Notes under the pieces: model-generated
Seen by the model: only the letters and a program-made list of their open reading frames with translations
What the model was told of the DNA's origin: nothing
The model's database searches: none
From: Gemmatimonadota bacterium
GTDB taxonomy: Bacteria > Gemmatimonadota > Gemmatimonadetes > Gemmatimonadales > GWC2-71-9
Assembly (NCBI GenBank): GCA_016874005.1
Contig: VGVQ01000003.1
Location: 1-35,018, forward strand
Direction of reading: 5' to 3'
DNA: 35,018 nucleotides
Made by a program: the position numbers and the translations under genes
Part shown: piece by piece, positions 20,484 through 29,182 of the stretch
How positions within the stretch are numbered: position 1 is the stretch's first letter
Layout: each line of letters starts with the position of its first letter

Positions 20484-21089
20484 ATGGCGCACACCCTGCC
20501 ACCGCTACCGTACGACTACAACGCGTTGGAGCCGCACATCGACGAACAGACGATGCGGATCCACCATGGGAAGCACCACGCCACCTACGTGACCAATCTC
20601 AACGCGGCCTTGGAGCCCCATGCCGACCTCGCCGCCAAGTCGATCGAAGACCTCATCGGCAATCTGACCGCCGTGCCAGAGGCCATTCGGACCGCGGTGC
20701 GGAACAACGGCGGTGGCCACTACAACCACACCCTCTTCTGGACCCTGATGACACCGGGTGGAGCGAAAGCGCCAGGGGGCGCCTTGGGCACAGCCATGGC
20801 CCAAGCCTTCGGCAGCTTCGACGCCTTCAAGGAACAGTTTCAGAAGGCCGGTCTCGGCCGGTTCGGGAGCGGTTGGGCCTGGCTCGTGCAGGATAAGTCC
20901 GGCAAGCTCGCCATTGAAAGCTCCCCCAATCAGGACTGCCCATTGATGGAGGGCAAGCACCCGGTGATGGGCTGCGACGTCTGGGAGCACGCCTACTACC
21001 TCAAATACCAGAACCGCCGGGCCGACTATCTCGGTGCTTGGTGGAACACGGTCAACTGGACCATCATCGGTTCCCGCTATCACGGCTGA
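20484..21089 (+). CDS. sodA: Superoxide dismutase, Fe/Mn family (Mn-type features)
   Basis: Enzyme of 201 aa converting superoxide to oxygen and peroxide. Metal ligands are His27 (MRIHHGKHH), His82 ([11 protein letters not shown]), Asp165 and His169 (DVWEHAYY). Gly-Gly before the second His and the Gln in NQDCPLM are the residues usually seen in Mn-type rather than Fe-type enzymes, although cambialistic activity cannot be excluded. No signal peptide is present, so it is cytoplasmic. The peroxiredoxin gene begins 17 bases later, giving a superoxide-then-peroxide detoxification pair. Confidence 0.96.
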
Positions 21090-21106
21090 ACGAGGAAATT
21101 ACTTCG

Positions 21107-21565
21107 ATGTCTCTGCCCGCGCCCGGGAGCGTTGCCCCGGACTTCACCTTGCCCTCGACCTCCGGTGCCCCGGTCAACCTCGCCTCGCTCCGCGGCAAGA
21201 ACGTGATCCTGGCGTTCTTCCCGCTGGCGTTTACCGGGGTCTGTACCGCGGAGATGTGCGCCTTCTCCGAGGACTACAGCCAGTTCCAGTCGGCGAGCAC
21301 GGTGGTGTTGCCGATCAGCGTCGACTCGGTCCCGGCGCTGAAGGAATTCAAGGCCAAGGAGAAGATGGCCGTCGACTTGCTGAGCGACTTCAAACGGGAC
21401 GTCTGCCGCGCCTATGGTACGCTGCTCGAGGAGAAGTTCTTCAGCAAGCGGGCCTACGTCCTGATCGACAAGGCCGGCACCGTCCGCTGGACCCACGAGG
21501 AGGCCGAACTCGGCCACAAGCGGGACAACAGCGAGTTGCTGGCGCAAATCGGGAAGCTTGGCTGA
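21107..21565 (+). CDS. Thiol peroxidase/peroxiredoxin, PrxQ/BCP or AhpE-like
   Basis: Thioredoxin-fold peroxidase of 152 aa. The peroxidatic Cys46 lies in PLAFTGVC (PxxxTxxC motif). Cys51 is five residues on, the spacing of the resolving Cys in many PrxQ/BCP enzymes. A third Cys lies in KRDVCRAYG. The N-terminus [16 protein letters not shown] is typical of the family. The frame opens upstream inside sodA, but AGGAA before the ATG at 21107 and the family N-terminus fix the start. The stop overlaps the next reading frame by 8 bases. Confidence 0.93.
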
Positions 21566-22164: not shown

Positions 22165-23682
22165 ATGACCACGCTGGGCGGAACCCCTCTCGATCTGATC
22201 GGCCAGATCGCCAGAATCCTCCACAGCGGGCTGCCGCCCGATGATACCTTGGCATCGGTCGCGGCCGTGGTGCATCGCGGGCTCGGCCTCGAATCGGTCT
22301 GCATCTGGCGCCGGGAGCCCAACGCCAACCGATGCGCCGGGATTGCCTCCCCCGTTCGCACGGCGACGGCGGACAATCTGGAGCACCTGCCGGCGTTGGG
22401 CCCCAACACGGTCCGCTATCCCCTGGTCCACGCCGGTTTGCGACTCGGCGTCCTCGAGATGGTGCTGCCTCCCAATGAACCCACCCTGCTGGCGAGCGTG
22501 GTCGAGGTGATCCAGAACCTCTTGGCGCCATTCCTCGATTCGATGACGCTGGCGGAGGACCTGGCGCTCGAGGTGGCCTCGCGATCGAGGGAGATCTCCG
22601 AGCAGCGTCGGTTCACCGGGCTCGTCATCGATAGCTTGCCGGTGGGGATCTACGTGATCGACCGGACCTACCGCATTCAGTTCTGGAACCGCAAGCGCGA
22701 AACCGGCACCCAAGGTCTCCGGCGCGACGACGTAGTGGGTCGACCGGTGTTCCAGGTTCTGACCCGGCAGAGTCCCGAGCAGCTCAGGGCCGATTTCGAC
22801 GAGATCTTCTCCTCGGGGGTTACCCACCAGCGCGAGACCGTGGTCGAACAGGGTGGCGAGCGCCGGGTCTACCGGCTGTCTCGGCTGCCGATGCGCTTGG
22901 GCGGGGATGCCATCACCCATGTGATCACGATCGGCGAGGACGTCACCGAGTCCCGCAACGTTCAACAGCAGATCCTCCAGCATGAAAAACTGGCCGCCGT
23001 CGGGCAATTGGCCGCCGGCGTCATGCACGAGATCAACAACCCGCTGGCAACCATCTCGGCCTGCGCCGCCGCGGTGGATGCTCGGCTCGGAGCGCTGGCT
23101 GACGGCGCCTCCCGGGCATACCTCGAGACCATCGAGCGCGAGGTCCAGCGCTGTTCCAAGATCGTCGACGGCCTCCTCGAGTTCAGCGGCCCCCAGGCCG
23201 CCGCGCGACCCAAGGAGCCGGTGACCCTGGATGCGCTGGTGGAGCGGACCCATTTCCTCCTCCGCCATCACAGACGGTACAAGCGGCTCCGGGTCGAAAC
23301 CGCCATAGAAGCGCCGCCGGTCTGGGTCCGCGGCAACGACGAGCAGTTGATCCAGGTCCTCATGGCGCTGTCGCTCAACGCCATCGACGCCATGCCGGAT
23401 GGCGGCACCCTCACGCTGCGGACCAACCGATCCCACAGCCGGACCGAGGCCGCGGTCGACGTCGTCGACACCGGCACCGGGATTCCCGCGACTCAACTGA
23501 CCAAGATCTTCGAGCCCTTCTTCACGACCAAGCCGCCGGGGCGGGGAACCGGGCTCGGGCTGTCGATTGCCTACGGGATCGTTCACGATCACGGCGGTCG
23601 GATCGACGTCTCGAGCGAGATAGGCCGGGGCAGTACCTTCTCCGTGGTGCTCCCGATCGAAGCCGTGGAGGTGGCCGGATGA
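22165..23682 (+). CDS. Soluble PAS sensor histidine kinase (NtrB-like)
   Basis: Cytoplasmic kinase of 505 aa with no membrane segment. Residues about 1-130 look like a GAF-type sensor domain. A short helix (LALEVASRSREIS) leads into a PAS domain at about 150-260 (DSLPVGIYVIDRTYRIQFWN, RDDVVGRPVF). His288 in GVMHEINNPLATI is the phosphorylation site. ATP-binding boxes are LSLNAIDAMPDGG (N), VVDTGTGIP (G1) and GRGTGLGLSIAYGIVHDHGG (G2). The HEINNPL form of the H box is typical of NtrB/multisensor kinases. The stop overlaps the regulator start as ATGA, so the two should be partners. Confidence 0.93.
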   Translation: MTTLGGTPLDLIGQIARILHSGLPPDDTLASVAAVVHRGLGLESVCIWRREPNANRCAGIASPVRTATADNLEHLPALGPNTVRYPLVHAGLRLGVLEMVLPPNEPTLLASVVEVIQNLLAPFLDSMTLAEDLALEVASRSREISEQRRFTGLVIDSLPVGIYVIDRTYRIQFWNRKRETGTQGLRRDDVVGRPVFQVLTRQSPEQLRADFDEIFSSGVTHQRETVVEQGGERRVYRLSRLPMRLGGDAITHVITIGEDVTESRNVQQQILQHEKLAAVGQLAAGVMHEINNPLATISACAAAVDARLGALADGASRAYLETIEREVQRCSKIVDGLLEFSGPQAAARPKEPVTLDALVERTHFLLRHHRRYKRLRVETAIEAPPVWVRGNDEQLIQVLMALSLNAIDAMPDGGTLTLRTNRSHSRTEAAVDVVDTGTGIPATQLTKIFEPFFTTKPPGRGTGLGLSIAYGIVHDHGGRIDVSSEIGRGSTFSVVLPIEAVEVAG

Positions 23683-24347
23683 AAGTCCTCGTGGTCGAAG
23701 ACGACCGGATTGTCGGGCAGTACGTCAAGCGAGGACTGGACGAGCAGGGTTACCACGCCGACCTGGTCGACGACGGGATGGAGGCCCTCCGGCTCATCTC
23801 GGGCGGGCTGTGCGATTTGGTGATTCTCGATCTCCGGCTGCCCGGAATGACCGGTTACGAGGTGCTCCGCACCGTCCGCGACCGAGGCATCACCATTCCG
23901 ATCCTGGTGCTGACCGCCCAAGACGCCGTCGACCACAAAGTCCAGGCGCTTCGGGCCGGCGCCGACGACTACGTCACCAAGCCGTTCGCGTTCGAGGAGC
24001 TGCTGGCACGAGTCGAAGCCATTGCCCGGCGGCCGCCCCAGATCCGGTCGAGTCGGCTCACCATCGCCGACCTCGAGCTCGACACCGCGACTCGTGAGGT
24101 GCGGCGGGCCGGCAAGCTGCTCGATCTGACGCCCAAAGAGTACACCGTGCTCGAGTACCTGATGCGCCACCCGAGCCGGGTCATGTCGCGGACCCTGATC
24201 ACCGAGTATGCCTGGGATTATCATTTCGATCCCGGCACCAACATCGTCGACGTGGTCATCAATCGCCTCCGGAAGAAACTCGATGCTGGCCACGCCAAGA
24301 AGATCCTCCACACCGTCCGCGGTGTGGGCTACGTCGTGAAAGCCTGA
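23679..24347 (+). CDS. OmpR/PhoB-family two-component response regulator
   Basis: DNA-binding regulator of 222 aa. The receiver domain has acidic pocket Asp8/Asp9, phospho-acceptor Asp51 (VILDLRLPG), Thr79 and Lys101 (YVTKPF). The C-terminal winged helix (about 128-222) contains LDLTPKEYTVLEYLMRHPSRVMSR, DPGTNIVDVVINRLRKKLD and HTVRGVGYVVKA. This pattern is closest to the CusR/PcoR-like subgroup. It is sandwiched between two kinase genes: the first overlaps it by 4 bases and the second begins 5 bases after its stop. A direct repeat of the kind OmpR-family proteins bind lies 1.4 kb downstream at the end of the operon. Confidence 0.95.
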   Translation: MKVLVVEDDRIVGQYVKRGLDEQGYHADLVDDGMEALRLISGGLCDLVILDLRLPGMTGYEVLRTVRDRGITIPILVLTAQDAVDHKVQALRAGADDYVTKPFAFEELLARVEAIARRPPQIRSSRLTIADLELDTATREVRRAGKLLDLTPKEYTVLEYLMRHPSRVMSRTLITEYAWDYHFDPGTNIVDVVINRLRKKLDAGHAKKILHTVRGVGYVVKA

Positions 24348-24352
24348 CTCCG

Positions 24353-25798
24353 GTGCGGTCGATCCGGCAGCGCCTCACCGTCGGATACGTGGTCGCGCTG
24401 ACCCTGGCCATCGTCGTCTTCGGGACGGTCCTCTACTACAATCGGCGCCAAGCGAACCTGACCGAGCTCGACTCCCGGCTCGAGGTCGAGGCCGAGGTGG
24501 CCAACGGACTGCTGGGCGAGCTGTCGCGATCGCTCGGACGGCTCCCACCCGTTCTCCAGGGCATTCAGGGCACCTTGCAGGGCTTCCGGCACTATGTCGT
24601 CTTGGTCGGGCGGGATGGAACGCCCAAGCTCACGGTCGAGCCCACGGGTGGGAGCCTCGACAGCACGGCCGTCACCCGGCTGCTCCGGCTCGCCACCGAA
24701 TCGGACCAGACCAGGTGGGGTACGGCGGCCGTTTTTCCTGGGCGGCCGGATCTCCGCTACTATGTCACCGGCGTGGCACGATCGGACCCAGAGCTCCGGA
24801 GCATTCTGGTCGGGGCCACCGTGGATGAGGTGCTCTTCGGCCCCTCGGATCTCCTCCGGGCCATGCTCTACATCGCGCCGCTGCTGATCCTGGTTTCGAT
24901 TCTGGTGGGCTCCTGGCTGGCCAGAACGAGCCTCCAGCCCCTCGAGTCGACCATCGACGAGCTCACCGCCATCACCGACGGCAAGAGCCTCCACCGCCGG
25001 CTTCCGGTCGACCCGGCCGCCACCGACGAGTTGGCCCGCCTGTCGCTCGCGGCCAACGCGATGTTCTCCCGGCTGGAGCACAGCTTCTCGGCTCAGCAAC
25101 GGTTCGTCGCCGAGGCGAGCCACGAGCTCAAGACCCCGCTCATGGTGCTCCGCGTGGGGGTCGAACGGGCCCTCACCAACCCCAAGATGCCGGCCGAGAG
25201 TCTCGAGCCGCTCGACGAATCGCTCGAGGAGATCAACCGGATGAGCGAGTTGGTCGATAGCCTCCTGATGCTGGCCCGCGCCGACGAGGGCCGGGCCCCG
25301 CTCGCGGTCGAAGAGTGCGACCTTCGCGAACTGGTCTCGGAGGCCGGGGAGACCGCGAACATTCTGGCCGAGGCTAACCAGATCCTGGTCCGAACCGACG
25401 TTCCATCCCGGCCGGTCCTGTTGCCGGTCGACCGAAACCGGATCCGGCAGCTGTTGCTCAACCTGGTGACCAACGCCGTCAAGTTCACCCCGGCCCATGG
25501 AGAAGTCCGCGTTGGCATCGTCGATGTCGACGCCACGGTACAGATCGTGGTGCGCGACACCGGGATCGGGATCGCCGCTGGCGATCTCCCCCACATCTTC
25601 GATCGGTTCTGGCGGGCCGACCCCGCTCGGACTCGGGACGAAGCGAAGGCGGGCACCGGTTTGGGGCTCGCCATCACCAAATGGATCGCCGAGGCCCACG
25701 GTGGGGCCATTACGGTGCAGAGCCGGCCTGGCAAGGGCACCGTTTTCACCGTATCATTGCCGAGGTCGGTCGCACCAAACGCAACACCCGTCGTTTAA
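24353..25798 (+). CDS. Membrane-bound sensor histidine kinase (CusS-like class)
   Basis: Kinase of 481 aa. Transmembrane segment 1 at about 8-28 (GYVVALTLAIVVFGTVLYY), an extracytoplasmic sensor loop of about 140 residues, and transmembrane segment 2 at about 172-192 (APLLILVSILVGSWLA). A HAMP region follows (TSLQPLESTIDEL). His257 sits in EASHELKTPL. ATP-binding motifs are LLNLVTNAVKF, RDTGIGI, DRFWRAD and GTGLGLAITKWIAEAHGG. The start is a GTG at 24353, five bases after the regulator stop, which places the first membrane helix correctly. The paired regulator is probably the one just upstream, shared with the soluble kinase. Confidence 0.94.
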   Translation: MRSIRQRLTVGYVVALTLAIVVFGTVLYYNRRQANLTELDSRLEVEAEVANGLLGELSRSLGRLPPVLQGIQGTLQGFRHYVVLVGRDGTPKLTVEPTGGSLDSTAVTRLLRLATESDQTRWGTAAVFPGRPDLRYYVTGVARSDPELRSILVGATVDEVLFGPSDLLRAMLYIAPLLILVSILVGSWLARTSLQPLESTIDELTAITDGKSLHRRLPVDPAATDELARLSLAANAMFSRLEHSFSAQQRFVAEASHELKTPLMVLRVGVERALTNPKMPAESLEPLDESLEEINRMSELVDSLLMLARADEGRAPLAVEECDLRELVSEAGETANILAEANQILVRTDVPSRPVLLPVDRNRIRQLLLNLVTNAVKFTPAHGEVRVGIVDVDATVQIVVRDTGIGIAAGDLPHIFDRFWRADPARTRDEAKAGTGLGLAITKWIAEAHGGAITVQSRPGKGTVFTVSLPRSVAPNATPVV

Positions 25799-25803
25799 TC
25801 TGT

Positions 25804-25821
25804 CTGTCATCGTTTTGTCAT
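25804..25821 (+). promoter_or_regulatory. Pho-box-like direct repeat upstream of the tonB-exbB-exbD operon
   Basis: CTGTCAT-CGTT-TTGTCAT consists of two 7-base half-sites whose starts are 11 bp apart, one helical turn. This matches 13 of 14 half-site positions of the E. coli Pho box (CTGTCAT-N4-CTGTCAY). It lies 5 bases after the kinase stop codon and 74 bases before the TonB ATG. OmpR-family regulators in general bind such tandem repeats, so the neighbouring regulator or a PhoB homologue elsewhere are both candidates. No obvious -10 is seen at the expected distance. Confidence 0.5.
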
Positions 25822-25895
25822 GTTGTGGTCAGGCCGTTGAAAGCCCTGCCTGTTTGCTTTGCTGTGGGTACTGTTGACTCCGCTGGAGGACGCAC

Positions 25896-26597
25896 ATGTT
25901 CGAGAACCTCATTGAGTCCCAGCCCAAGCGGCAACGCTCCTTCGCGCAGTCCGCGATCTCATTGGTACTCCACCTGGTCTTGGGGTACGGTGCGATCAAG
26001 GCGACGTCCGGCGCTGCGGAACAGCTGAAGGAGATTCTCCAGGACACCACCATGGTGTTCTTGAAGCCGCCTGAGCCGCCACCTCCACCTCCACCGGCGA
26101 CGCCGCCGGACGCGATCGTCACGGCGAACCCGCCGCCGATGGGCTTCCAGACGGTGATGCCGCCGACCGAGATCCCCAAAGACATTCCGCCGGTCAACCT
26201 GACCGAGCGGTTCGACGCCAAGGACTTCAGTGGCAAGGGCGTCGAGGGGGGTATCGCGAGCGGCGTCGTGGGCGGCACCGGTCCGGTCTCGACCCAAGAG
26301 ACCTTCGTCGAGGCCGAGGTCGACGACCCGGTGCAGGCCCTCAACCTCCCGAGGCCGAAGTATCCGCCGGTCCTTCAGCAGGCCGGTATCGCCGGCAGCG
26401 TCGACGTCCAGTACGTCGTCGGGATCGAAGGGAAGGCCGAGCCGGCGTCGTTCCGCGTTCTTCGCAGCACCAACAAGGCGTTCGAAGAGCCGGCCCGCGA
26501 AGCCATCCTGGCGGGCACCTTCAAGCCAGCCAAGATTCGGGGCCAGCCGGTGCGACAGCTGGTGCAGCAGCGGATTTCGTTCAACATCGGGCAATGA
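25896..26597 (+). CDS. tonB: TonB family energy-transducing protein
   Basis: Protein of 233 aa that spans the periplasm and passes proton-motive energy to TonB-dependent receptors such as the SusC homologue. A single membrane helix at about 16-35 (SAISLVLHLVLGYGAI) contains the His typical of the TonB anchor. A proline-rich segment (PPEPPPPPPPATPP) follows at about 57-72. The C-terminal TonB domain (about 150-233) contains PKYPPVLQQAGIAGSVDVQYVV and AREAILAGTFKPAKIRGQPVRQLVQQRISF. A strong GGAGGA site precedes the ATG. It heads the operon with ExbB and two ExbD proteins. Confidence 0.93.
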   Translation: MFENLIESQPKRQRSFAQSAISLVLHLVLGYGAIKATSGAAEQLKEILQDTTMVFLKPPEPPPPPPPATPPDAIVTANPPPMGFQTVMPPTEIPKDIPPVNLTERFDAKDFSGKGVEGGIASGVVGGTGPVSTQETFVEAEVDDPVQALNLPRPKYPPVLQQAGIAGSVDVQYVVGIEGKAEPASFRVLRSTNKAFEEPAREAILAGTFKPAKIRGQPVRQLVQQRISFNIGQ

Positions 26598-26648: not shown

Positions 26649-27395
26649 ATGGGTGTAGATATTCTCACGCTGTACGAGCACGCCAACACCTTCGCTCGGG
26701 CGATCGTCTGGATCATGATTGCGATGTCCGTCTTCTCCCTGACGGTGGCTATTGGGAAGCTCTTCAAGATCCGCAAGAGCACCTCGGCCACCCGGAAGTT
26801 CGCCCCCCAATTCAGCCGGGCGATTCAGGAGGAGCAACTCGACCAGGCCATCACGCTGGCCGAGAAGAACCAGACCAGCCACGTCGCCAAGCTCCTGGGC
26901 GGGGCGCTTTCGGAAGTGAAGCCGTTGCTCCGCGATCGGGCCACCATTACCGCCGCCGACATCAATTCGGCCGAGCGGGCGGTCGAGCGGCAGATGCTCA
27001 TCACCCTCGCCGATTTCAAGCGCGGCCTTGGGATTCTGGCCACGGTCGGTTCCACGGCCCCGTTCGTCGGACTCCTGGGCACCACGATGGGTATCGTGAC
27101 GGCCTTCAACGCGATGTCGGCCGGCGGCGCGTCGGGCGGCCTTGCCGGCATCGCCGGCGGGATCTCCGAGGCGCTCATCACCACGGCGTTGGGCCTCCTG
27201 GTCGCGATCCCGGCGGTGTGGTTCTACAACTACTTCACCACCAAGATCGAGAACCTCACGGTCGAGATGACCTACAGCTCCAAGGAACTGATCGACTACC
27301 TGATCAAGAGCGTGGGCAGCGAGTTTGGTCGGTCGATCTTCACCAAGGAATTCCAGGCCCAGAAGGCGGTGAGTGGCAGTGGCCACATCAGTTAG
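26649..27395 (+). CDS. exbB: ExbB/TolQ/MotA proton-channel family protein
   Basis: Inner-membrane subunit of 248 aa of the TonB-ExbB-ExbD motor. Three hydrophobic segments are visible: about 17-37 (AIVWIMIAMSVFSLTVAIG), about 128-150 (GLGILATVGSTAPFVGLLGTTMG) and about 170-200 (ISEALITTALGLLVAIPAVWFYNYF). The segment 2-3 motifs APFVGLLGTTMGIVTAF and GGISEALITTALGL are the MotA_ExbB signature. AAGGAG precedes the ATG, 51 bases after tonB. Its end overlaps the first exbD by 23 bases. Confidence 0.95.
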   Translation: MGVDILTLYEHANTFARAIVWIMIAMSVFSLTVAIGKLFKIRKSTSATRKFAPQFSRAIQEEQLDQAITLAEKNQTSHVAKLLGGALSEVKPLLRDRATITAADINSAERAVERQMLITLADFKRGLGILATVGSTAPFVGLLGTTMGIVTAFNAMSAGGASGGLAGIAGGISEALITTALGLLVAIPAVWFYNYFTTKIENLTVEMTYSSKELIDYLIKSVGSEFGRSIFTKEFQAQKAVSGSGHIS

Positions 27396-27840
27396 TTCGG
27401 CGCAAGCCGGCCAGACCAACGTCAAGGCCGAGCCCAACGTCATTCCGATGATCGACATCATGCTGGTGTTGTTGATCATCTTCATGATCGTGACGCCGCT
27501 CATCGCCAACGGCTTCCTGGCCACCATGCCGACGGGTGAAAACCTCGACAAGCGGCCCGAAGGCGAGGGTGAGGTGGTCCTGGGCATCGATCAGAACGGC
27601 AGCTACTTCTTGAATGGCGCCCTGATCGCGGCCGACGTGCTGCCCGATCAGCTCAAGGCGATCTACGCCGCCCGCGAGGAAGACAAGATCATGTACTTCC
27701 GAGCCCACAAGGATCTCAAGTTCGAGAAGATCCAGGACGCGGTGGAGATCGCCCGACGGGCCGGGGTTCGAGTCATGGCGGCCATCACCGACATCGAGAC
27801 CTCCGGGCTCAACGTCTTCGGTGCCAAGAAGCAGGAATAG
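27373..27840 (+). CDS. exbD: ExbD/TolR family biopolymer transport protein, copy 1
   Basis: Protein of 155 aa with a short cytoplasmic tail, one membrane helix (PMIDIMLVLLIIFMIVTPL) carrying the essential Asp of the proton path, and a periplasmic domain ending VRVMAAITDIETSGLNVFG. The start is a GTG within the exbB gene at 27373; another GTG at 27379 is possible. The overlap implies coupled translation so that ExbB and ExbD are made in proportion. It is followed by a second exbD 11 bases later. Confidence 0.93.
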   Translation: MAVATSVSSAQAGQTNVKAEPNVIPMIDIMLVLLIIFMIVTPLIANGFLATMPTGENLDKRPEGEGEVVLGIDQNGSYFLNGALIAADVLPDQLKAIYAAREEDKIMYFRAHKDLKFEKIQDAVEIARRAGVRVMAAITDIETSGLNVFGAKKQE

Positions 27841-27851
27841 GAGATAACGCT

Positions 27852-28253
27852 ATGGGAATGTCAGTTGGCGATTCTGGCGCGTTGAGCGCGGAACCGAACG
27901 TGATTCCGATGATCGACATTCTGCTGGTGCTCCTGATCATCTTCATGATCTCGCAGCCCTTGGCTCGAATGGCGATCGACGTCCAGGTACCTCCGCTGGA
28001 GACGGCCGCACCCTCCGGGCCGTCGCAGCAGATCGTGCTCAACATCCTGGCCGATGGCAACTATGAGATCAACGGCCAGCCGGTCCCGCCGGGACAGTTG
28101 GACACTCAGATCCACGCGATCTACGACAATCGGCCGACCAAGCTGATCTTCATCAAGGCCGATCCGAACCGGACCTATCAGGACTGGATCGAGGCCTCCG
28201 ACATCGTCCGGGGCGCGGGGGTCCAGGTGATCGGGTTCACGCCCAAGGGCTAG
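27852..28253 (+). CDS. exbD: ExbD/TolR family biopolymer transport protein, copy 2
   Basis: Second ExbD of 133 aa. It shares with copy 1 the N-terminal block AEPNVIPMIDI and LVLLIIFMI including the membrane Asp, but the periplasmic part is diverged (YEINGQPVPPGQLDTQI, KLIFIKADPNRTYQDWIEASDIVRGAGVQVIGFTPKG). Two different ExbD proteins with one ExbB are common in Gram-negative operons and may assemble together or serve alternative partners. AGGAGATAACGCT precedes the ATG. A terminator follows. Confidence 0.94.
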   Translation: MGMSVGDSGALSAEPNVIPMIDILLVLLIIFMISQPLARMAIDVQVPPLETAAPSGPSQQIVLNILADGNYEINGQPVPPGQLDTQIHAIYDNRPTKLIFIKADPNRTYQDWIEASDIVRGAGVQVIGFTPKG

Positions 28254-28342: not shown

Positions 28343-29182
28343 GTGGGTCGAATCTTTTCCGGGGGCTCGGACGTCTCCCGTGACGTTATGGGACGTCGCC
28401 AGGTGATCGGGCGCCCGAGCCTCCGGGCGCCAGCCCAGCCGATCGGGCTCGGGCTGCCGGCCGGCACCCGATTCAAATGGGCGGGGCCGGTCTCCGTCGT
28501 TGTTCATATCCTCCTGCTGTTCGGCTTGATCCGACTCGCCCCGCTGCGCAACCTCGACTTTCAAGACACCGCCGGGGCTGGCTCGAACGGCCGAGCCGGT
28601 GGGGGTGGCGGCGGTGGCGGCAGGATTCGGATGGTAGCCTTGCCCCCCATGGCACGGCCCGTGGTTCCGCCCCCCCCGGCCGTGGTTGTTCCGCCGCCCC
28701 CGCCGGTCCCGCCACCGGTCGTCCAGCCCGAGGAGATCCCAGTCGTCGCGCCGCCCTCCCCGGACACTGTCGCCCCTGGAGAACAACCCGCCTCCGGGTC
28801 CGGGACCGGCCGCGGTACCGGAACCGGGTCCGGATCGGGGACCGGTTCTGGGTCGGGGAGCGGCTCCGGTAGAGGCTCTGGAACGGGCAGCGGGACGGGT
28901 CCCGGGTCTGGAGGTGCGGGCTCGGCCCGGCCGCCGGAGCCCCGGCAGCTGATTCTCCCGCCCCCGGAGATCCCCAAAGCGCTGCGGGGTGTCACGATTA
29001 GCGTTACCTTCCTCGTCGGACCCGAGGGGCGGGTCGAAGCGGTCCGCTTTGCCCCCGAACCCGAAGACCGTGGGTTCGCCAAGAAGCTCGAAGAGGTCAT
29101 GAAGGACTATCGGTTCCGGCCGGCTCGAGGACCCGACGGCGCGGTCGTGGCCGGCATGGTGACGGTACAACTCACCTTCTAG
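28343..29182 (+). CDS. Second TonB-like protein with Pro-rich and Gly/Ser/Thr-rich periplasmic linker
   Basis: Protein of up to 279 aa with TonB architecture. A cytoplasmic tail of about 45 residues leads to one membrane helix at about 47-66 (PVSVVVHILLLFGLIRLA), again with the His in VVHILL. A poly-Gly patch and a proline-rich stretch (PPPPAVVVPPPPPVPPP) follow. Residues 151-194 are almost only Gly, Ser and Thr. A TonB_C-like end (IPKALRGVTISVTFLVGPEGRVEAVRF, KDYRFRPARGPDGAVVAGMVTVQLTF) closes it. The start is either a GTG at 28343 with GAGG eight bases upstream, or the ATG at 28388 giving 264 aa with no ribosome-binding site. It is separated from the first tonB operon by a terminator and is followed 10 bases later by a permease gene. 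Confidence 0.8.
   Translation: MGRIFSGGSDVSRDVMGRRQVIGRPSLRAPAQPIGLGLPAGTRFKWAGPVSVVVHILLLFGLIRLAPLRNLDFQDTAGAGSNGRAGGGGGGGGRIRMVALPPMARPVVPPPPAVVVPPPPPVPPPVVQPEEIPVVAPPSPDTVAPGEQPASGSGTGRGTGTGSGSGTGSGSGSGSGRGSGTGSGTGPGSGGAGSARPPEPRQLILPPPEIPKALRGVTISVTFLVGPEGRVEAVRFAPEPEDRGFAKKLEEVMKDYRFRPARGPDGAVVAGMVTVQLTF
28793..28924 (+). repeat. In-frame Gly-Ser/Gly-Thr coding repeat
   Basis: Imperfect 6-base repeats (GGNTCN/GGNACN) encode a Gly-x alternation over 44 residues of the second TonB-like protein. Such tracts are prone to slippage, so length differences between strains would be expected. Confidence 0.7.

Follow-up and report, generated by a model that had tools for sequence, protein, structure and literature searches.

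Operators of the OmpR/PhoB-family direct-repeat kind are already known, and several described systems resemble parts of the one considered here. The E. coli PHO box motif is the heptamer CTGTCAT (PMC4415409). In the account of regulator-DNA contacts in PMC3973317, PhoB Arg201 hydrogen-bonds the guanine of both half-sites, while PmrA, with Asn at that position, makes no such contact in the model and prefers CTTAAT. E. coli CusR and HprR are described as single-target regulators of adjacent operons, CusR conditionally so (PMC8249747). Like the system proposed below, HaeSR of Porphyromonas gingivalis is a two-component system controlling outer-membrane transport genes; it differs in having a hemin-activated regulon of several transport systems, and the parts of its description considered here mention no dedicated TonB-ExbBD operator (PMC3764172).

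The window, a 35,018-nt stretch of Gemmatimonadota DNA in contig 3 of a 3.88 Mb genome (49 contigs), contains a single response regulator gene between genes for two unlike histidine kinases, the first a soluble PAS-domain protein and the second membrane-bound (22165-25798), an arrangement that recurs in relatives. The genes, with the codon of one regulator residue, are:

22165..23682, + strand: HK1, soluble PAS-domain histidine kinase (Pfam PAS_4, HisKA, HATPase_c)
23679..24347, + strand: RR, OmpR/PhoB-family response regulator (Response_reg + Trans_reg_C), proposed binder of the repeat
24264..24266, + strand: codon of the RR recognition-helix residue Arg196, which corresponds to PhoB Arg201 when RR is aligned with PhoB, CusR, HprR and BasR of E. 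coli
24353..25798, + strand: HK2, membrane histidine kinase, CusS/CzcS-like (NCBIfam cztS_silS_copS, 237.6 bits, below the 292.55 cut-off)
25896..26597, + strand: tonB (TonB_C, PF03544; TIGR01352, 35 bits, above the 27.1 cut-off)
26649..27395, + strand: exbB/tolQ-type proton channel gene (PF01618)
27373..27840, + strand: first exbD/tolR gene (PF02472)
27852..28253, + strand: second exbD/tolR gene (PF02472)

HK1 has no transmembrane stretch by hydropathy, its stop overlaps the RR start (ATGA), and it occurs upstream of RR in relatives as well. HK2 shows two hydropathy peaks, residues 6-31 and 165-194, separated by a periplasmic loop of some 140 amino acids. The last four genes form a TonB-ExbB-ExbD energiser operon, with TonB_C, MotA_ExbB and ExbD domains in a single cluster (PF03544, PF01618 and, twice, PF02472). 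The gene order HK1-RR-HK2-tonB-exbB-exbD-exbD recurs in three families (f1, f2 and f3) within the reach of contigs and fetched stretches; in many f2 loci, HK1 is farther away or beyond the fetched stretch.

The first-pass annotation had judged RR to be more CusR-like than PhoB-like, and model scores agree: its closest NCBIfam model is that of the CzcR/SilR/CopR/CusR heavy-metal regulators (cztR_silR_copR, TIGR01387), at 234.6 bits against 188.1 for the PhoB model, both short of the respective cut-offs of 279.2 and 296.2. CusR and HprR share Arg at the same helix position and, with their kinases, supply the closest models; RR is nevertheless only 45% and 42% identical to them. No metal efflux genes adjoin RR, the downstream genes being tonB, exbB, exbD and exbD. 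The CusR site is an inverted repeat. Here, by contrast, the repeats are direct, and the output would be TonB-ExbBD rather than copper efflux.

Two neighboring features may be mentioned. The operon is followed by a second TonB-like gene (28343-29182; TIGR01352, 19.9 bits, below the 27.1 cut-off) with a Gly/Ser/Thr-rich linker. Just upstream of HK1-RR-HK2-tonB are genes for an Fe/Mn superoxide dismutase and an AhpC/TSA peroxiredoxin (20484-21562 in the window), whose place is kept, for one or both where the contig reaches, in L032, L034, L033, L040 and L038; since they lie directly upstream of HK1 in several f1 loci, redox or metal state might be guessed to be the signal.

The repeat itself, CTGTCATCGTTTTGTCAT at 25804-25821 (CTGTCAT-N4-TTGTCAT), was originally reported as a Pho-box-like element, and its sequence bears this out: it has an 11-bp period and agrees with the Pho-box consensus CTGTCATNNNNCTGTCAT (CTGTCATN4CTGTCAT) in 13 of 14 positions, and the gap that contains it, from the kinase stop (25798) to the tonB ATG (25896), does measure 97 bases. 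It is the sole match in the window at up to one mismatch (0.00 expected, from 100 shuffles); at up to three mismatches, the window has an unremarkable 2 matches against 1.36 expected. The genome scan that had been suggested for further copies found none of YTGTCATNNNNYTGTCAT (YTGTCATN4YTGTCAT) within one mismatch besides the site in the tonB gap, across all 3.88 Mb and 49 contigs. The looser YTGTMATNNNNYTGTMAT (YTGTMATN4YTGTMAT) has one perfect match genome-wide and none with one mismatch.

The two heptamers first annotated are the two best of five phased half-sites, as becomes apparent when the regions upstream of tonB in relatives, named near ones being Gemmatimonadota metagenome-assembled genomes, are aligned on the first of them. 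The relatives divide into an R group, with Arg at RR residue 196, and an H group (family f2), with His. Column analysis used 60 R and 55 H rows, and gave the following features:

25793..25799, + strand: HS0, upstream weak half-site GTTTAAT, A at 25798, overlapping the HK2 stop codon (A phase 0.93 of 60 R rows, 0.80 of 54 H rows)
25804..25810, + strand: HS1, core half-site CTGTCAT (A 1.0; position 3 G in 58/60 R-group rows)
25815..25821, + strand: HS2, core half-site TTGTCAT (A 1.0; position 3 G in 60/60 R-group rows)
25826..25832, + strand: HS3, weak half-site TGGTCAG, at about -35 of the proposed promoter (A phase 0.95 R, 0.78 H)
25837..25843, + strand: HS4, weak half-site TTGAAAG (A phase 0.88 R, 0.62 H)
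25854..25859, + strand: proposed -10 position, TTGCTT, a poor hexamer in this genome, with a closing T conserved in relatives

The five most A-rich of the 115 columns in the R group are exactly columns 21, 32, 43, 54 and 65, corresponding to 25798, 25809, 25820, 25831 and 25842 in the window. Their A fractions, in that order, are 0.93, 1.0, 1.0, 0.95 and 0.88 in R rows and 0.80, 1.0, 1.0, 0.78 and 0.62 in H rows (up to 55), against column means of 0.18 and 0.22. Both groups thus have the half-site period near 11 bp of an OmpR/PhoB-family operator. Farther downstream, column 82 is T in 0.80 (R) and 0.85 (H) of rows, and columns 77 and 78 are T and A in 0.76 and 0.73 of H rows. This pattern suggests a -10 element about 10 bp after HS4, in which case HS3 would fall at the -35 position; a consensus promoter scan did not call the proposed -10 at 25854-25859.

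It is highly probable that the repeat constitutes the core of an operator with five half-sites that lies in the tonB promoter, is bound by the 23679-24347 regulator and has tonB-exbBD as its main or only output. The phosphorylated regulator would bind HS0 to HS4 (about 25793-25843) head-to-tail with an 11-bp period, its phosphorylation presumably being set by HK1 and HK2, whose genes flank its own. Once bound, it would cover the -35 position and recruit RNA polymerase to the weak -10, making the TonB-ExbB-ExbD energiser the main or only output of the local two-component system. By homology to PhoB, Arg196 of the recognition helix would read the G in each TGTMAT core half-site.

The same regulator might repress, or chiefly maintain a constant basal level, in place of acting as a switchable activator, but this seems unlikely. 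The array stops about 10 bp before the proposed -10 and HS3 falls on the -35 position, an arrangement typical of PhoB-type activation; the -10 is also weak in this genome, as expected of an activator-dependent promoter. On the other side, an array overlapping the promoter is compatible with repression too, and there is a precedent in E. coli CusR, the nearest well-studied relative, which is said to bind its only target in the unphosphorylated state and to repress it (PMC8249747).

Activation by the adjacent regulator thus being preferred, the distribution of the element among relatives can be considered. Lack of conservation upstream of tonB orthologues had been named beforehand as one outcome that would refute the first-pass annotation, and the annotation survived this test: in families f1 and f3, each of the 42 distinct loci that have HK2 and a readable gap reaches 12-14 of 14 for YTGTMATN4YTGTMAT between HK2 and tonB, down to about 38-45% TonB identity, and in each of the 42 none of 300 shuffles equalled the element's score. 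This supports the original proposal of an OmpR/PhoB-family-type regulatory element before the TonB/ExbBD operon. Seventeen f2 loci score 8-12. Twelve loci with tonB paralogues lacking RR and HK2 also score 8-12 and have no comparable element; L072 and L078, TonB paralogues without two-component genes, reach 12 of 14 by best match. In L013, L049, L050, L052 and L060, HK2 and tonB are 901-1334 nt apart, yet the element is 86-96 nt from tonB. In L043, L049, L050, L052 and L053, HK2 is separated from the main tonB by at least one additional tonB-like gene; in L049, L050 and L052 the operator nevertheless stays with the main tonB.

De novo expectation-maximization (EM) recovered the element as well. 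From 61 R-group regions it returned TAATCCGgtTGTCATCGtTTTGTcATcT, the same motif as the repeat (log-likelihood gain 1201.7, against 97.8 for shuffled regions), and from 56 H-group regions the related TTaAtCGAATCTTAATCTTcccgCcATTC (955.1 against 94.9). The distance from HS1 to the end of the region read is 81-173 nt (median 100.5 in R, 108 in H), an end that coincides with the tonB start, or is a few bases off, in nearly all rows. Column analysis left out two incomplete regions below the score limit, L066 (G040), which carries CTGTCATCGAATCGTAAT, and L199 (G228). The R rows contain one duplicate, L040 and L251 being a single contig; genome G018 contributes two loci, L101 and L068, and G045 and G047 are near-identical. 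Skipped loci were L045, L067 and L237 (no usable HK2 or gap) and L258 (gap too short), and the duplicate loci L032 and L034-L037 were excluded from the 42. The regulator itself was matched in 164 of the 298 genomes sampled from the phylum, with E values no higher than 1e-70. Among the genomes listed without a match, at least eight belong to the order, and in two of these (G012 and G013) the locus is present at the end of a contig; of the remaining unmatched genomes, the first 12, which are followed by 114 more, come from different families within the class.

In f2, the core half-sites are CTTMAT in place of TGTMAT. Half-site position 3, nearly always G in the R rows, is T or C in 52/55 H rows at HS1 and in 52/55 at HS2, the G being kept in 3/55 at each. 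Counted over whole regions, the R core is present in 59/61 R regions and 0/56 H regions, and the H core in 55/56 H regions. Across 111 aligned regulators (the residue being missing from the contig in three rows), RR residue 196 divides the groups completely, with Arg in all 56 of the R group and His in all 55 of f2, and no other position of the DNA-binding domain does so; receiver-domain positions 37 and 57 separate the two groups equally cleanly. The f1 regulators of G239 and G284 have Arg at 196 yet T in HS1. Arg196 aligns with PhoB Arg201; CusR and HprR of E. coli also have Arg there, and BasR (PmrA) has Asn. Given that PhoB Arg201 reads guanine and that PmrA, with Asn, uses CTTAAT, the f2 half-sites (CTTMAT-N5-CTTAAT) resemble those of an arginine-less regulator, comparable to the PmrA/BasR box of Klebsiella pneumoniae (half-sites CTTAAT and CCTAAG). 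Like PmrA, f2 regulators lack Arg at the Arg201 position; they differ in having His where PmrA has Asn, and their kinases and targets are different. In the proposed mechanism, the change of residue 196 to His in f2 would be matched by the change of its half-sites to CTTMAT. In a quick tree, His196 forms one nested clade, so that the Arg/His change is one event, and the co-change counts as a single observation rather than many.

The repeat thus has a candidate cognate winged-helix regulator, an adjacent Response_reg + Trans_reg_C protein that co-changes with it. The first-pass annotation had named this upstream-encoded regulator as a possible binder, which the co-change supports, and the 23679-24347 protein is likely to be the one that binds. 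It had also suggested a PhoB homologue encoded elsewhere, with phosphate as a possible signal; envelope state, the other signal it had put forward, is neither favored nor contradicted by the comparisons. A true Pho box, through which such a homologue would put TonB energy supply under phosphate control, has some points to recommend it: the 13/14 match to the E. coli motif at the right period, the presence of pst genes, and a PhoB-like regulator on contig 27 (252.8 bits, below the 296.2 cut-off), beside a HAMP-PAS kinase, with Arg at the Arg201 position. The resemblance to the Pho box/PhoB pair extends to the CTGTCAT heptamer direct repeats and the OmpR/PhoB-type winged helix with Arg at the guanine-reading position. 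The site differs from a Pho box in being near-unique, in having five half-sites, in its tonB-exbBD target and in the lack of a pst copy: within 10 kb around pst there is no box at 12 of 14 or better (best 11 of 14). Its presence also goes with the adjacent two-component genes. Orthologues of the PhoB-like regulator turned up in 27 of 28 genomes searched (20 f2, 5 f1, 2 f3), with Arg in all 27. Because the paralogue keeps Arg in 20/20 f2 genomes examined, a tonB site bound by PhoB would be expected to have retained its G there, which the f2 half-sites have lost. With no near copy elsewhere in the genome or at pst, and with the PhoB-like paralogue unchanged where the site changed, neither PhoB as binder nor phosphate as signal is upheld; this reading is very improbable, and, to judge from these comparisons, the repeat is probably not a Pho box in function.

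It is just as improbable that the element is a core promoter or UP-like element whose Pho-box likeness is incidental. Its similar distance to tonB among relatives and its fixed distance to the -10-like T would fit such an element, but strict 11-bp phasing of five A columns is unexpected for sigma-factor elements, and so are half-sites that change at the same position along with a recognition helix. A chance match, for which the chance-level window count at three mismatches might speak, is refuted by conservation in 42/42 f1/f3 loci and an expectation of 0.00 at one mismatch, and has practically no likelihood left.

The best reading is therefore an operator of the neighboring two-component system, conserved throughout the order and with its code rewritten once, whose main or only target is tonB-exbB-exbD-exbD. 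As regards the number of targets, a wider regulon was considered and rejected: YTGTMATN4YTGTMAT has 17 two-mismatch matches in this genome against 16 for the reversed-pattern control. Autoregulation as the main role was likewise rejected, there being no second strong copy in the genome and the -10-like T being on the tonB side. At least one perfect match is found in 29/61 genomes. In 37 f1 genomes, 25 of 29 perfect matches are at the tonB locus (two of the 25 being one locus split across two contigs in G015), and the other four equal the number of reversed-pattern control matches, by hand tally. Extra perfect matches in G053, G051, G058 and G039 have no recognizable phosphate genes alongside, judging by ORF starts. 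In one of these genomes (G058:C1; L158 and L161), TTGTCATGCTG occurs in tandem at two places, with similar pairs elsewhere, and looks like a short dispersed repeat rather than an operator. In another genome (L165; G022:C255, 2247-2275), three tandem half-sites, CTGTCAT-N4-TTGTCAT-N4-TTGTCAT, precede a HlyD/CusB-like membrane-fusion gene; a possibility is that they are a second target of the regulator in that one genome.

A literature search of PMC, judged from its listings, found no description of this system or of a Gemmatimonadota TonB regulator; the account of a light-induced TonB-dependent iron uptake system in PMC11406998 mentions no regulator site in the parts considered here. What would be new is order-wide dedicated control of the TonB energiser, the five-phase array and a natural recognition switch. 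On balance, it seems probable that, throughout the Gemmatimonadales, a module of two kinases and one regulator acts on tonB-exbB-exbD-exbD as a private target by way of an operator with five half-sites, and that one family had its whole code rewritten when a single Arg in the reading helix became His and both core half-sites of this operator lost their G. Such a natural specificity switch may have been feasible because the regulator has essentially one target.

The case also carries a warning: a good Pho-box match can belong to another regulator. The family-wide replacement of TGTMAT by CTTMAT, accompanied by a change in one helix residue, offers a clean natural test of regulator/operator co-change, for which two purified proteins and a pair of DNA fragments would suffice. 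TonB energiser operons are commonly regarded as iron-controlled; here, a dedicated two-component system appears to own the TonB operon across an order.
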